Assembly (NCBI GenBank): GCA_017547755.1
Contig: JAFYOX010000038.1
Coordinates: 1 to 40,370 of the forward strand
Direction: 5' to 3'
DNA length: 40,370 bases
DNA from: Clostridia bacterium
Lineage (GTDB): Bacteria; Bacillota; Clostridia; Oscillospirales; CAG-272
Position 1 is the first letter of the stretch. Each line of letters begins with the position of its first letter. Shown here one piece after another: positions 1-38,039 of the stretch. The notes beneath the pieces were generated by a model that saw only the letters and a list, made by a program, of their open reading frames with translations, searched no databases and was not told where the DNA came from. The position numbers and the translations under genes were made by a program.

Positions 1-170
1 GGCTTCCGGAGACCCACAGGGTCTCCCAGCCGGCAATTCACAAAGGGGCGGCGCCTGAGCCCGGAGGTTCACGAAGTGAAACTCCATTGTGCAGCCGTCT
101 GCGCAGGACATAAAATCCAAGAAAAACGACCGCTAGGTCGTTTTTCCACCTTCCGCGACGAAGTCGCGTC
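1..170 (+). repeat. Partial copy (right end) of ~550-bp hairpin-array element
   Basis: This is the right-hand end of the dispersed element seen complete at 14195-14745 and 25101-25658; the rest lies outside the window. In order it holds a hairpin of GGAGACCC/GGGTCTCC, a GGGGCGGCGCCTGAGCCC block, a local variant hairpin (GTTCAC-GAA-GTGAA inside GGAG/CTCC) absent from the other copies, a CTGCGCAG block, a GAAAAACGACC/GGTCGTTTTTC hairpin (121-141) and a terminal CGCGAC-GAA-GTCGCG hairpin (154-168). The terminal hairpin has a different stem from the other copies but keeps the GAA loop. No coding potential is evident. Identification as a repeat is direct from comparison within the window; its function is unknown. 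Confidence 0.85.
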
Positions 171-12994: not shown

Positions 12995-13054
12995 ATTACA
13001 AGGGATAATCCGGACGCTCCATCTTACTGACTGTTGAAAGGAATATTAGAAAGA

Positions 13055-14188
13055 ATGGCAAAAGCAACCACTAAAAAGCAGACGGTAGAAATCACCGCCG
13101 ACCGTACCCCGGAAGAAAAGAAGAAGGCGCTCGACACCGCGATCAGCCAGATCGAAAAGAGCTTCGGCAAGGGCACCATCATCAAGATGGGCGCCAATCC
13201 GCGCATGAACGTCTCCGCCGTTTCGACGGGTTCGATCACGCTCGACATGGCACTGGGTATCGGCGGACTTCCACGCGGCCGAATCATCGAAATCTATGGT
13301 CCGGAATCTTCCGGTAAAACAACGCTCGCACTCCACGCCATCGCGGAAGTGCAGAAAACCGGCGGCGAAGCGGCATTCATCGACGCGGAACACGCGCTCG
13401 ACCCGGTATACGCTTCGGCACTCGGCGTAAACATCGACAATCTCCTCGTGTCCCAGCCGGACTCCGGTGAACAGGGTCTTGAGATCTGCGAAGCCCTCGT
13501 CCGTTCGGGCGCGATCGACATCGTGGTCATCGACTCCGTTGCCGCGCTCGTTCCGCAGCAGGAAATCGACGGCGATATGGGTTCGTCCCACGTCGGTCTG
13601 CAGGCACGTCTGATGTCACAGGCTCTCAGAAAGCTCTCCGGCATCGTCGGCAAGACCAACTGCATCGTTATTTTCATCAACCAGCTCCGTGAAAAGGTCG
13701 GCGTCATCTACGGCAACCCGGAAACGACTCCCGGCGGCCGTGCGCTGAAGTTCTACGCATCCGTCCGCATCGAAATCCGCAAGGGTGAGGCGATCAAGAA
13801 CGGCGCGGAAGTTCTCGGCAACCACACGAAGTGCAAGGTCGTAAAGAACAAGGTCGCACCGCCGTTCAAGAGTGCGGAATTTGACATTCTCTACGGCGAA
13901 GGCATTTCGAAAACGGGTGAAATCGTGGACATCGCGACGGAACTCGGCTTCCTGGAAAAGAGCGGCTCGTGGTACTCCTACGACGGCACGCGCATTGCAC
14001 AGGGCCGCGACAACGCGAAGAAATACATCGGCAACGATCCCGCGCTGGAAGCGGAACTTGAAGCGAAGATCAAGGAAAACGGCCGTGCCCCGGACATGGA
14101 ACGCGACGACATCGAGGATGACGACAATCTCGGCGCAGACGACGAACTCGATATCCGTCTGCTCGACCTTGACGAGGATGAGGAATAA
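13055..14188 (+). CDS. recA: Recombinase RecA
   Basis: A 377-residue RecA: ATP-dependent strand exchange and coprotease for LexA. It shows the N-terminal helix region [16 protein letters not shown], Walker [10 protein letters not shown] near residues 82-90, the MAW-like [21 protein letters not shown] stretch with Walker B, and loop 2 [19 protein letters not shown]. The tail is strongly acidic, ending LDEDEE. ATG 13055 is chosen by family N-terminus; AAAGGA lies 12 bases upstream, a rather long spacing, and an in-frame TTG at 13034 exists. A terminator follows, itself the left edge of a dispersed repeat. Confidence 0.98.
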
Positions 14189-14194
14189 AGAATA

Positions 14195-14745
14195 CACGCC
14201 TGCGGCGTGAAAGGAAGAAAACCGCCGGAAGGCGGTTTTCTTGAATAATGTCCTGCGCGGACGGCGCACAAGAGGGCATATCGATGCCCTCTTGTGAATC
14301 ACCTCGACCAAAGGGGACACCCCTTTGGATACCCCGTGCGCACGGGTGACTCGCGCTTGAGCGCTCGGACAGACAGCGGATTTCACGCGGCAGACCGTTC
14401 GGAAGTTACAACGTCGGGTGCAAAGCTGTCCAAAGCGTACGTTCAGTACAAACAGCGGTGAAGGTTATCTTCAGATAAAGCGGTAAACGCTACCCTTAAC
14501 CCCCGGCGGTCAGCCAGAATCAACTTCCCATACGGACGGCATACCCGTCTCGTTCGTATTCTCCACCCCACAACTGCAGTATAACATCAGCCCGAAGGGC
14601 TTCCGGAGACCCTATGGGTCTCCCAGCCGGTATTCATAAAGGGGCGGCGCCTGAGCCCCTTTATGCGCCTGCCCCGCGCAGGGGCATTAATCCAAGAAAA
14701 ACGACCAACGGTCGTTTTTCCACCTTCCCGACCGAAGGTCGACTT
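14195..14745. mobile_element. ~550-bp dispersed hairpin-array element, copy 2
   Basis: Fills the recA-recF spacer and is collinear with 25101-25658 throughout. Its two ends carry the same ordered hairpins in inverted orientation: an outer hairpin (CACGCC/GGCGTG left, CGACC-GAA-GGTCG right), a GGAAG linker, an A-rich/T-rich hairpin (14215-14242 left, 14696-14720 right), CTTG-ATnAATG, a hairpin with TGCGC loop, GGCGCA, a stem of AAGAGGGCAT or AAAGGGGC, TGTGAAT/TATGAAT, and a fourth hairpin (CCAAAGGGG/CCCCTTTGG left, GGAGACCC/GGGTCTCC right). The ~250-bp centre has a partial tandem repeat (AGCGGTGAAGGTTATC..). No open frame looks genuine. It is probably a mobile or structured-RNA element of unknown class. 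Confidence 0.8.
14215..14242 (+). terminator. recA terminator (left-end hairpin of the element)
   Basis: Perfect 12-bp stem AAGAAAACCGCC/GGCGGTTTTCTT with a GGAA (GNRA) loop, 27 bases after the recA stop. The TTTTCTT arm supplies the T tract. It coincides with the outer hairpin of the dispersed element. Confidence 0.85.
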
Positions 14746-16636: not shown

Positions 16637-17366
16637 GGGGACAAAATGGGGGGATGTGCAGGGGTGGAGGAATGGGGATACGGGGGATACGGTCGCTTTT
16701 TGAAAAAAGCTCCGCAAAAACTTCAATCTGTGGCAGCCGGATTGTGGGGTTGATATGGGGGAGAAAAAGAATTTTTTGATGGGTCTGTGCGCTGACATAT
16801 AGTTTGTCCCAGCCGACAAAGTGGAGCGATCCAAATTCTATGAAGTAGTGGAGACGGAAATCAGGGGCCGCCGAGACCCTGATTTCCCACGCCGTATGGG
16901 ATAACCGTGATATCGTGCAATCGATAGTTATTCTTCTACATTTTGTCAGGTTTCCGCGCGGCTTGGCTATGCCGCCGTCCGCGCTTTTCGATAGTCAGAG
17001 CGGCTGACATACAGTTTTAACTGACGCAAAGCACGAACGGCGGCAGCCAAGGAGTGCGGATAACCAATAATATGCAGCTGAATTCTAACGTAACGCACGA
17101 TATCCTTGTATCGGAAGCCGGCGTGGGAAATCAGGGAGCGAATGCCCTGATTTCCGTCTCCACTACTCCTTAGAATTTGGATCGCTCCACTTTGTCGGCT
17201 GGGACAAACTATATGTCAGCGCACAGACCCATCAAAAAATTCTTTTTCTCCACCATATCAGCCCCACAAACCGGCTGCCACAGATTGAAGTTTTTGCGGA
17301 GCTTTTTTCAAAAAGCGACCGTATCCCCTTTTCTCCACCCCCGCACATCCCCCATTTTGTCCCCCC
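16637..17366. repeat. ~730-bp giant imperfect palindrome
   Basis: The left arm (16637-16893) and right arm (17120-17366) are inverted copies of about 250 bp with only scattered differences. Landmarks pair throughout: GGGGACAAAATGGGG, ATACGGTCGCTTTTTG, TGACATATAGTTTGTCCC, GATCCAAATTCT, GGAGACGGAAATCAGGG. The 226-bp centre continues as a degenerate palindrome (GATATCGTGC, CTTGGCT..GCCGCCGT on both sides) around GTCAGAGCGGCTGAC near 17005. Short mirrored frames exist in each arm but lack ribosome sites. A transcript would fold into one very long hairpin. It separates recX from rimO. Origin is unknown; a mobile element or the product of an inverted duplication are both possible. Confidence 0.85.
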
Positions 17367-21184: not shown

Positions 21185-21222
21185 CCGGGGAAGAAACTTT
21201 TTTAAAAAAGTTTCTTCCCCGG
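21185..21222 (+). terminator. Terminator hairpin (shared family) after the DUF6062 gene
   Basis: Perfect 19-bp inverted repeat CCGGGGAAGAAACTTTTTT and its complement, followed by the family tail ACCCCATCTTCAAAAACTTTTAAACGAA. Member of the dispersed hairpin-plus-tail family described in the findings. Confidence 0.8.
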
Positions 21223-21258
21223 ACCCCATCTTCAAAAACTTTTAAACGAATAGAAAAA

Positions 21259-21311
21259 CCAAAGAAAGTGCAGACTTTACGACTAAAAATCTGCACTTTC
21301 TTTGGCTTTTT
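21259..21311 (+). terminator. Second terminator after the DUF6062 gene
   Basis: Perfect 16-bp stem CCAAAGAAAGTGCAGA (21259-21274) with TCTGCACTTTCTTTGG (21290-21305) and a CTTTTTAT tract. Confidence 0.85.
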
Positions 21312-21322
21312 ATATAGTATAA

Positions 21323-21405
21323 AGTTTTTTGAAAAGGGGTTCGGGGGAAAAGTTTTTTGAAAAGGGGTTCGGGGGAAAACTTTTTCGAAAAAAAGTTTTC
21401 CCCCG
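21323..21405 (-). terminator. cysS terminator with tandemly duplicated tail
   Basis: Hairpin CGGGGGAAAAC..GTTTTCCCCCG (21370-21405) closes the minus-strand cys operon. Its downstream tail is present twice as a perfect 28-bp tandem repeat (21323-21350 and 21351-21378). Same family as the hairpin at 21185. Confidence 0.8.
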
Positions 21406-21422
21406 ATTTCTTATTCCTTCAA

Positions 21423-25074: not shown

Positions 25075-25100
25075 CAGGAAATTTTAAATTTTTTTAGGAT

Positions 25101-25658
25101 GAAAAACTCCCTGACGGTCGTTTTTCTTGATTGATGTCCCTGCGCGGGACGGGCGCACAAGAGGGCATGTCGATGCCCTCTTGTGAATCACCTCGACCAA
25201 GGGGGTTCCCCCTTGGATTCTCCTGCGTATGTGGGACTCGCGCTTGAGCGCTCGGACAGACAGCGGTTTTCACGCGGCAGACCGTTCGGAAGTTACGGAG
25301 TTGGGTGCAGAGCTGTCCAAAACGCACGTTCAGTAGAAACAGCGGTGGACGTTACCTTCAGATAAAGCGGTGAAGGTTATCTTTAGATACAGCGGAGAAC
25401 GTCACCCTTAACCCCCGGCGGTTAGCCTGAATCAACTTCCCATACGGACGGCACATCCGTCTCGTTTGTATTCTCTACCCTACAACTGCAATATAACAAT
25501 CCGCCCGAAGGGCTTCCGGAGACCCACAGGGTCTCCCAGCCGGTATTCATAAAGGGGCGGCGCCTGAGCCCCTTTATGCGCCTGCCCCGCGCAGGGGCAT
25601 AAATCCAAGAAAAACGACCGCCAGGTCGTTTTTCCACCTCTGCACCCGAAGGGTGCCC
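25101..25658. mobile_element. ~550-bp dispersed hairpin-array element, copy 3
   Basis: Collinear with 14195-14745. Many stems differ from that copy but remain paired: GTCCC-TGCGC-GGGAC for GTCC-TGCGC-GGAC, CCAAGGGGG/CCCCCTTGG for CCAAAGGGG/CCCCTTTGG, GCACCC-GAA-GGGTGC for CGACC-GAA-GGTCG. The left outermost hairpin is missing and the left A/T hairpin (from 25101) has a damaged 5' arm. The central ~26-bp tandem unit (AGCGGTG..GTTA.CTT.AGATA) is present about three times, against two in copy 2. It lies between the cysE promoter and a plus-strand promoter; no target-site duplication is evident. Confidence 0.8.
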
Positions 25659-36354: not shown

Positions 36355-37083
36355 TTACTTGGTTTTACCGAGAAGGTTTGCGATGCGCGCATCGGCGGTT
36401 GCCGTGAGAATTTCCATCCGTCCACGGTAATCGTTGTCGTCGATGTCGTCGTTCACGAACCGCTCCGTGAGCTTATCAATCGCGCCTTTGAGTTCGTTGC
36501 TGATGAAGTCGATCTGTTCTCTGACGTATTGTGCCGCGGGATTTTCCTTCGGCGCGTGTTCCTTTTTGTACGCCTCGATCATGTGAACGGTATCCTCGCG
36601 GATATTGCCCCACTTGTCGAGCATATTCTCCAACAGCTTGGTTTCCGCAGCGAGAATCGTCGCAAGTTCATTGTTTTCATAAGACCCTTCCGGCGGTTCG
36701 GCAGGAATATATTTTTTCAAATTTCTGATCTCGTCGTCGATATCGTCGAGCTTGTCGTACAGGCGGCGCAGTTCTTCGGGCATGGTTTCGGTTGTTTCTT
36801 CGATCACGGTTTCTTCTGCGGGAGTAATGGTTTCGAGAACTTCTGCGGTGTTGGTATCTTCAAACATTTTTATATCCTCCGACTGCGAACAGAGTTCACT
36901 GACTCTCGGCGGACACGCTTCCGTATTCCCGTTTTCCGTATCGGTCAGGACAATGGCGGTTTCGCTCTCGTCGGTGAAGCGTGCCCGTCCTTTTTTTATC
37001 AGACCCTGCACCCGTTTCGGGTAGGTCTGTCCGATTTCGTTTCCGTCTGCATCGAATACGTGAATCCTCTCGTTTTTTGTCAT
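36355..37083 (-). CDS. Unknown protein, N-terminal PLMP/RRXRR-like module plus helical region (paralogue A)
   Basis: A 242-residue protein. Residues ~5-45 (RIHVFDADGNEIGQTYPKRV..LIKKGRARFTD..IVL) resemble in pattern the N-terminal PLMP/RRXRR module of IscB-type proteins (a short beta strand, G-x4-P-x2-P-x-R-A-x-x-L-x-x-G-R-A); no nuclease domain follows. An acidic linker rich in Glu/Thr (about 72-100) leads to a predicted coiled/helical part (PEELRRLYDKLDDIDDEIRNL) and a C-terminal helix with DDNDYRGRM. The start at 37083 has AGGGGAGG at the right distance; an in-frame ATG at 37143 lies upstream. A second in-frame ATG at 36867 also has GGAGG. The neighbour at 37281-38039 is a paralogue with the same plan. 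Function unknown. Confidence 0.75.
   Translation of the reverse strand: MTKNERIHVFDADGNEIGQTYPKRVQGLIKKGRARFTDESETAIVLTDTENGNTEACPPRVSELCSQSEDIKMFEDTNTAEVLETITPAEETVIEETTETMPEELRRLYDKLDDIDDEIRNLKKYIPAEPPEGSYENNELATILAAETKLLENMLDKWGNIREDTVHMIEAYKKEHAPKENPAAQYVREQIDFISNELKGAIDKLTERFVNDDIDDNDYRGRMEILTATADARIANLLGKTK
36865..36880 (-). promoter_or_regulatory. Internal ribosome binding site and start in paralogue A
   Basis: On the minus strand GGAGG (36876-36880), eight bases, then an in-frame ATG (36865-36867) opening MFEDTN. It would give a 170-residue form (36355-36867) lacking the N-terminal module. The same arrangement recurs in the paralogue. Confidence 0.65.
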
Positions 37084-37280: not shown

Positions 37281-38039
37281 TTATCCGCCGTACTTCAGCG
37301 CGTTCAGTTCGCCGCGAAGTTTCCGGATGCGTTCATCGCAGTCTTCCTGTACCACCGCCATCTGTGCGCGGTAGTCGTCCAGCGTCATTTCCTGACAGCG
37401 GAGACTGTCGTTCAGCTTCTGGCACATCGCCTTGTACGATTCCATCGCCATGTTGATCTGATAAACAATAAACCGTTCTTCGTCAAAGCCGTCCGACTTG
37501 CGCTGCGGCTTTGCTTCGTCCTTGACCTTCTGGATCAGGTTCAGCGTCTGTACGCGCATATCCGCATAACGGTCGGCAAGATGACGGAGACGGTCGCCTT
37601 CATCGCTCATCGCGTTGGCAATGGCGATTACGCCTTCCGGTTCCATGCCGTTCATGTCTTCCGGAACCGACGGCCCCATCGCGCTGACATTGTAGAGCAT
37701 CTTGTCGATGTTTTCGAGGATGCCGTACAGACGGTTCAGTTCCTCGTTCAGCGGAAGACCGGTTTCTTCGATAGTTTCGGGAACTTCTGCGGTTTCGGTG
37801 ATTTCTTCGTTGACGTTGATATCTTCAAACATTTCTGTATCCTCCAATGTATGTTGTACTGTATGTACCTCGGACGGATACGCTGAATCCATGTCTCGTA
37901 TATAGGATATGAGAACGATCACGTCGTCTGCATCGTCTGCCCAGCGTGCCCGTCCCTGTTTCACTAACCCACGCGCCCGTTTCGGGTAGGTGGGATTGAC
38001 TTCATTTCCGGTTTCATCGAATACACGGATCATTTTCAT
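37281..38039 (-). CDS. Unknown protein, N-terminal PLMP/RRXRR-like module plus helical region (paralogue B)
   Basis: A 252-residue paralogue of the downstream gene. The N-terminus IRVFDETGNEVNPTYPKRAR followed by GLVKQGRARW is the clearest version of the module. Then come an acidic linker (EEITETAEVPETIEETG), a helical part (NEELNRLYGILENIDKML) and a C-terminal helix with LDDYRAQM, matching DDNDYRGRM of paralogue A. The expected start codon by alignment is ATC at 38049-38051, six bases after GGGGAGG; the first ATG, at 38039, lies 14 bases beyond the site. An internal in-frame ATG at 37832 has its own GGAGG. It has its own promoter and terminator. No membrane segment or known catalytic motif is seen. 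Confidence 0.75.
   Translation of the reverse strand: MKMIRVFDETGNEVNPTYPKRARGLVKQGRARWADDADDVIVLISYIRDMDSAYPSEVHTVQHTLEDTEMFEDINVNEEITETAEVPETIEETGLPLNEELNRLYGILENIDKMLYNVSAMGPSVPEDMNGMEPEGVIAIANAMSDEGDRLRHLADRYADMRVQTLNLIQKVKDEAKPQRKSDGFDEERFIVYQINMAMESYKAMCQKLNDSLRCQEMTLDDYRAQMAVVQEDCDERIRKLRGELNALKYGG
37830..37845 (-). promoter_or_regulatory. Internal ribosome binding site and start in paralogue B
   Basis: Minus-strand GGAGG (37841-37845), eight bases, then in-frame ATG (37830-37832) opening MFEDIN, giving a 183-residue short form. Position, spacing and following residues match the internal start of paralogue A. Confidence 0.65.

Follow-up and report, generated by a model that had tools for sequence, protein, structure and literature searches.

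What kind of element is the sequence of about 550 bp that recurs in the window, i.e. in the whole analysed stretch of 40,370 nucleotides from a Clostridia bacterium (genome G000)? The original prediction, made from the letters alone, placed two full copies and one end there. We searched for them with R2, a covariance model built from the end modules, which was trained on 31 of 37 modules found by pattern, with hairpins 1-3 set manually and the six modules carrying an inserted hairpin excluded. The model confirmed both copies and the single end, and in each copy it found a plus-strand end followed by a minus-strand end, so the same hairpin series indeed stands at both ends in inverted order. 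Copy 1 (14195..14745) lies between recA (13034-14188, named by reading the sequence) and recF (a TIGR00611 match), and its left and right end modules at 14212..14302 (+) and 14629..14725 (-) scored 88.7 and 96.8 bits. The modules of copy 2 (25101..25658), at 25096..25191 (+) and 25542..25639 (-), scored 103.4 and 102.3 bits; these four scores are partly given by construction because all four ends are training rows. The right arm of a third copy, truncated by the contig start (1..170, -), was absent from the training set and was still recognised at 33-151 (-) with 55.1 bits. This arm has an extra hairpin within hairpin 3, and a tRNA lies downstream at 315-396 (Rfam). The inverted ends align also without the model, e.g. 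query positions 1-105 matched the minus strand with 79.7 bits in a blastn search of the own genome.

The count of three holds for the window and not for the genome, where we found about 49 loci of this twin-armed repeat by manual grouping, with the reservation that some of those at contig ends may be two parts of a single locus. The assembly of G000 is 74.8 % complete and has 117 contigs. The DNA of copy 1 gave 77 matches in it by blastn, and R2 likewise gave 77. A known annotated family, the outcome that would speak against the prediction, was not found: the window had only a tRNA match in Rfam 15 at the gathering score and none in the element, and in a search of three loci with E up to 5 all matches inside the element were far under the gathering scores. 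We also did not find the family described in the open-access literature searched, and scanning the genome collection for an exact pattern gave no match.

A full copy consists of two inversely oriented arms, in each of which hairpins numbered 0 to 4 follow in a fixed order. Reading inward from either end, one meets a variable hairpin 0, AAGGAAG or similar, hairpin 1, hairpin 2, GGCGCA, hairpin 3, TGAAT, a short complement of the hairpin-3 loop, hairpin 4 and the core, which agrees with the order proposed earlier. In the left arm of copy 1, hairpin 0 (14195..14209, +) has a 6-bp stem and the triloop TGC inward, i.e. GCA on the outward strand. Hairpin 1 (14217..14240, +; helix 1 of the stem test described below) is an A/T-flanked, terminator-like stem, hairpin 2 (14250..14262, +) has the loop TGCGC with its complement GCGCA at 14264-14268, and hairpin 3 (14267..14296, +; helix 3) has a loop complementary to a segment near 14304-14308. 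The core of this copy (14303..14628) is made of two unlike halves, as seen from the alignment and from the within- and between-species scores. The outer hairpin expected at each end is variable in the family and missing from some copies.

Each arm has four or five hairpins and is roughly 180-285 bases long, and the conserved end modules are 91-99 bases long and start with AGG. Paired ends run plus and then minus in our set of 121 loci (45 from G000, 39 from G013 and 37 from G004, duplicates removed; the G004 and G013 loci came from best-match lists and are part of the copies there). Unpaired ends are also present, e.g. in L080-L082. The paired-end elements are 358-572 bases long in G000, G004 and G013 and about 660-740 bases in the copies read in G006, G012 and G020. 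Hairpin 1 is A/T-flanked in G000, G004 and G013, and the loop of hairpin 2 is TGCGC or TACGC. The two halves of the core are alike in G004 and unlike in G000, and the core of G013 is another sequence. Some arms (among them 33-151 of the window, L012, L025, L127 and L203) carry a hairpin, e.g. GTTCAC..GTGAAC, inserted inside hairpin 3 and showing its own stem variants.

The claim that stems differ between ends while the architecture is kept was borne out, with both partners changed in 13 of 28 pairs. In the 31 training ends, 84 stem cells changed on both sides, against a shuffled mean of 27.6, and none of 500 shuffles was as high. Paired cells made up 92.0 % against 83.7 % after shuffling, and sliding the partner columns by 1-3 positions reduced the pairing to 44-55 %. 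Immediately downstream of hairpin 3 lies a segment that complements its loop, and it does so across many sequence variants (GTCGA/TCGAC, GGTCG/CGACC, GTGCC/GGCAC, GAGCC/GGCTC, GTTGC/GCAAC). The score of this pairing in 149 unique arms from 12 species was 4.01, compared to 2.51 after shuffling and a maximum of 2.83 in 100 shuffles; taken by species, it exceeded the maximum of 100 shuffles in G000, G004, G013, G009 and G016, with a narrow margin in G004 and G016. To judge from the sequences, the covariation fits a pseudoknot. The loop of hairpin 2 is complementary to the adjoining GCGCA, with variants such as TGTGC/GCACA, and this pairing probably excludes a closed hairpin 2.

Perfect palindromes can arise by template switching without selection, and the structure might be kept neutrally by palindrome-correcting mutation and recombination between copies. 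The few hairpin alleles, which are shuffled between ends, would suit such a process. Under it, however, a loop would not be expected to covary with a segment beyond the hairpin, as we see here, nor would a bias between strands be expected (see below), and we consider it very improbable. A coding element was rejected, as the longest open stretch varies between 67 and 165 aa and all residue classes modulo 3 occur among the element lengths; open reading frames overlapping the element are taken as chance.

Regarding the distribution of the family, the DNA of the copy matched 12 of 59 genomes, i.e. 11 of 25 genomes of the genus (G000 counted) and, weakly, one in another genus. R2 matched 17 of the 25 genus genomes among the matches listed, and four genomes in a 146-genome sample of the taxonomic family, three of them in the genus. 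Sixteen matching species form one group on a midpoint-rooted tree of RecA and DnaN, in which the split between these 16 clade species and the nine others is poorly supported (0.39); G018, with one match, falls outside. In G012, G011 and G020 many R2 ends, among the matches listed, lie a few hundred bases from contig starts, so the repeats probably break assemblies and are hence undercounted. Searches with blastn against 50,697 phage and 72,556 plasmid records gave no match to the repeat, and three patterns applied to viral contigs gave 0, 0 and 1 matches, the single one being without a significant R2 end; a phage or plasmid origin was rejected as the sole explanation on these results.

The positions of the copies are partly shared between species. 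An orthologous flanking gene was in common with one of the 37 fetched G004 loci for 25 of the 45 G000 loci, and with one of the 39 fetched G013 loci for 17 of them. For 13 G000-G004 pairs the genes on both flanks match in side and direction, and both full copies of the window are among these, the two genes flanking copy 2 being common to a G004 element end; the partial window copy has one flank in common with G013. The sequences at shared sites are nevertheless no closer than random. Same-site cross-species pairs (21 of 26, as five lack a full copy and the window's own pairs are among those without a full partner) score 31-94, against within-species medians of 221, 248 and 185, and their ranks among 648-783 random pairs of different species range from 34 to 605. 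Either the sites persist and their sequences are rewritten in each species, or the sites have been re-entered. In G012, ends at different places are 95.0-98.6 % identical (140 bases, four comparisons). The copy number, the mosaic arms, these near-identical ends and the within-species likeness fit a copying element, while the shared positions are unlike a freely moving one and argue against frequent jumping. By their flanking genes, 49 of 80 full copies lie in tandem, 12 in convergent and 15 in divergent gaps, with four unclear; 70 gene gaps in a set of loci, taken for comparison, comprise 54 tandem, eight convergent and eight divergent ones. In one G013 locus (L104, contig C4) an element copy lies between two tRNA matches of equal score, at 721-802 and 1416-1497, and a tRNA of this score is also the neighbour of the partial window copy.

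As to which strand matters, the clearest asymmetry is in hairpin 3. Its non-Watson-Crick cells, read inward, comprised 48 A.C and only 2 G.T in 213 arms: 36 and none in the best 150 of 159 matches, which come from G000, G004 and G013, and 12 and 2 in 63 arms of other species. Counted once per species and position, the ratio was 15 to 2 (one-sided sign test, 0.0012), where the neutral process described above predicts no bias. As inward A.C cells are wobbles on the outward strand, a folded RNA or single-stranded DNA is suggested. Among 211 arms, 152 had an outer hairpin whose stem was at least 5 long; 75 of these hairpins had a triloop, and 60 of the 75 triloops are GNA outward. Nearly all of the 60 come from G000, G004 and G013, GNA triloops being rare elsewhere, and GAA and TTC are likewise the commonest triloops in control sequence. 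In hairpin 2, the outermost pair reads T.G inward in 133 of the 150 arms and in 29 of the 63, a sign opposite to hairpin 3; this pair is probably unpaired, and we have set it aside from the strand evidence. Hairpin 1 is strand-neutral (2 and 2 in the 150 arms; 12 G.T and 15 A.C in the 63), and so is the pairing of the hairpin-3 loop (21 A.C, 21 G.T). In fold energy the outward strand is the more stable one in 57 of 59 G004 arms and elsewhere in 20 of 40, 28 of 51 and 37 of 63. The strand evidence is mixed overall, but a single strand, either RNA or single-stranded DNA, is probably under selection. An RNA read inward was rejected as the sole explanation, as the mismatches in hairpin 3 point the opposite way, although the outer pair of hairpin 2 does not.

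The same data may be read as a pair of structured non-coding RNAs, transcribed from the centre outward and each ending near hairpin 1. The outward wobbles of hairpin 3, the outward GNA loops in three species, the compensatory stems, the covarying loop pairing and the terminator-like hairpin 1 of G000, G004 and G013 would all be expected of such RNAs. However, searches for sigma-70-type promoters on either strand of the cores of 80 copies showed no clear enrichment, with sites scoring at least 9 in 8 % of copies against 5 % of shuffled sequences in G000, 9 % against 5 % in G004 and 0 against 6 % in G013. Moreover, the T run of hairpin 1 is at most three in the copies read in G009, G006 and G012 and four in G016, and the cores are unlike between species. 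We regard an RNA pair as rather unlikely, and still as one of the two main rivals to the reading preferred below.

If the element is copied, the copying factor is presumably not its own. A larger copy bearing a transposase was not seen in the 121 loci of G000, G004 and G013, and a target duplication was absent from 76 full copies, where the shared run was 5.71 compared to 5.73 after permutation (old copies may have lost it). The inverted ends, the high copy number and the lack of a conserved reading frame are what one would expect of an ordinary MITE whose cut-and-paste transposon was not seen. With neither of these two hallmarks found, and with a structure kept while the sequence changes, this origin appears very improbable. 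The earlier alternative of a mobile element or a structured RNA is partly upheld, by the copy number, the mosaic arms and the covariation, and finds no backing in a transposase, a target duplication or promoter enrichment. Y1 transposases occur in eight of the 25 genus genomes and in four of the 16 clade species, namely G000 (weak), G004, G007 and G009; none was found in the other 12 clade species, whose genomes are incomplete. A RAYT-driven REPIN was rejected as the sole explanation, given that the Y1 transposase does not correlate with the repeat. We also considered a gene on contig C23 that is flanked by copies, and dismissed it as the copying enzyme because it is a relative of methionine gamma-lyase with matches in 23 of the 25 genus genomes.

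The reading that we prefer, tentatively and with slightly less than even confidence, is that of a clade-specific, non-coding, non-autonomous and very large REPIN-like repeat, which is copied or converted by a factor encoded elsewhere. The arms would fold as a single strand, the one with its 3' end at the element edge, and would be recognised by an enzyme encoded elsewhere that copies or converts elements within the genome. New copies would overwrite old sites or survive only in tolerated intergenic gaps, in which case positions persist and sequences are homogenised.

None of the known families tested accounts for the twin-armed repeat. In the literature, REPINs are described as two inverted palindromic units, extragenic, with many copies and long persistence, and with hairpins predicted in single-stranded DNA or mRNA (PMC3116915, PMC8049555), each REP being 20-40 bases long with a GTAG or CGTC tag (PMC3733652). 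The two palindromic units in inverted order are common to both families. The repeat differs from REPINs, as described there, in its long arms with several hairpins and loop pairing, in end modules that begin with AGG, in the missing correlation with a Y1 transposase, in its species-specific cores and in its crowding near oriC. BIME, BOX and ERIC are described as palindromic, partly mosaic intergenic repeats, ERIC being structured (PMC2267715, PMC3049150, PMC2817692); the present repeat is larger and two-armed, its loops pair with other segments, and its copies at shared sites are alike within a species. The end hairpins of IS200/IS605 elements are recognised as single-stranded DNA, and both ends are used on one strand. 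In our repeat the favoured strand is instead the outward one at each end, and a Y1 transposase is again uncorrelated with it.

The 3' overhangs of Streptomyces telomeres are another possible parallel. There, the strand that ends 3' carries several palindromes in succession, with GCA loops in which the G:A pair is sheared, and one palindrome complements part of another (PMC4513846). The repeat resembles this description in its hairpin series, in the outward GCA triloop of copy 1 and in the complementarity of a loop to a segment, but it is chromosome-internal, about 550 bases long and multi-copy, with copies inside contigs or at assembly breaks. It is a distinctly improbable idea that the arms are telomere-like or rolling-hairpin ends and that the element multiplies as a tiny linear replicon without its own transposase. 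If it were true, the 3'-ending strand would fold into hairpins and a pseudoknot and would prime or receive DNA synthesis, elements would be rewritten at fixed sites around oriC, and palindromes met en route, such as the partition site of G024 described below, would become modules. The element would then represent an intragenomic replicator of a new class, linked to the origin and partition domain.

In several species the copies are concentrated around oriC. The oriC contig of G000 (C75) carries eight loci, of which two lie at contig ends, against 0.70 expected, and the contig on which ParA- and ParB/Noc-like genes lie carries six against 1.05; together these are 14 loci against 1.74 expected (Poisson, 5e-9), for contigs that were examined after the copies were already known. 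The Noc-like gene, whose NCBIfam score is under the model cut-off, has copies on either side. In G009, six copies surround dnaA, dnaN and gyrB within a stretch of about 15 kb. A copy lies at most 1.5 kb from dnaN in seven of 15 clade species with a dnaN match, compared to none of seven species outside the clade; as dnaN was chosen after G009 had been seen, the count without that genome is six of 14, and three of the seven matches near dnaN are weak (E 0.0002-0.002).

The second main rival builds on this crowding and takes the repeats for host sites in the origin domain of the chromosome, to which a nucleoid or segregation protein binds and which gene conversion keeps alike. It would account for the copies near dnaN, for the fixed positions across species and for the palindromes of G024 that are found partly in repeat cores. 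On the other side, a double-stranded site leaves the strand bias unexplained, many copies sit away from the origin domain, and the dnaN contig of G013 is not clearly enriched, with two ends against about 0.9 expected among the matches listed. The order in which the contigs were inspected, the contig-end loci of C75, the weak dnaN matches and the absence of the palindrome from the element cores read outside G024 also count against it, and we judge it unlikely.

The palindrome in question is TGTTTCACGTGAAACA, which we take to be the parS consensus of Bacillus. In G024 two ends (+ and -), 2 kb apart near gyrB, bracket a gene that also lies between two G009 elements and is a putative sugar kinase, a name given from reading its sequence. 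Both of these arms and a third one elsewhere carry the exact palindrome, about 375 bases in for the pair near gyrB. It occurs 230 times in G024, against 0-4 times in each of the 24 other genomes of the genus, and the reversed control occurs 0 times. Of the 46 sites read in G024, 24 share the core flank on at least one side, and an R2 end was present in four or five of 20 further palindrome stretches of this genome. The palindrome is absent from element cores outside G024 in the loci read, and other species have single sites near dnaN or parA.

Dispersed structured repeats are common in bacteria, and the twin-armed family is a clear case. It unites a covarying two-armed fold, a strand preference in one hairpin, shared sites whose sequences are alike only within species, crowding around oriC and the lack of a matching RAYT. 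It makes testable whether copying proceeds as RNA or as single-stranded DNA and whether the repeats serve the origin domain, and G024 with its parS-like sites offers a test of a partition system facing a chromosome-wide spread of sites.

The window contains further repeats. The stretches 16683-16866 and 17145-17328 form a 184-base inverted repeat, 97 % complementary with 278 bases between, which looks like a separate palindromic element. A second dispersed family of short palindromes, of the GGGGAGGAACTTTTT..AAAAAGTTCCTCCCC type, has up to ten members in the window, with sites at 21190-21412, 28743, 30824, 33134, 34841, 36191 and 38216. Finally, a 99-base stretch is duplicated at 36968-37066 and 37933-38031 with 73 % identity, perhaps as part of a tandem gene duplication.
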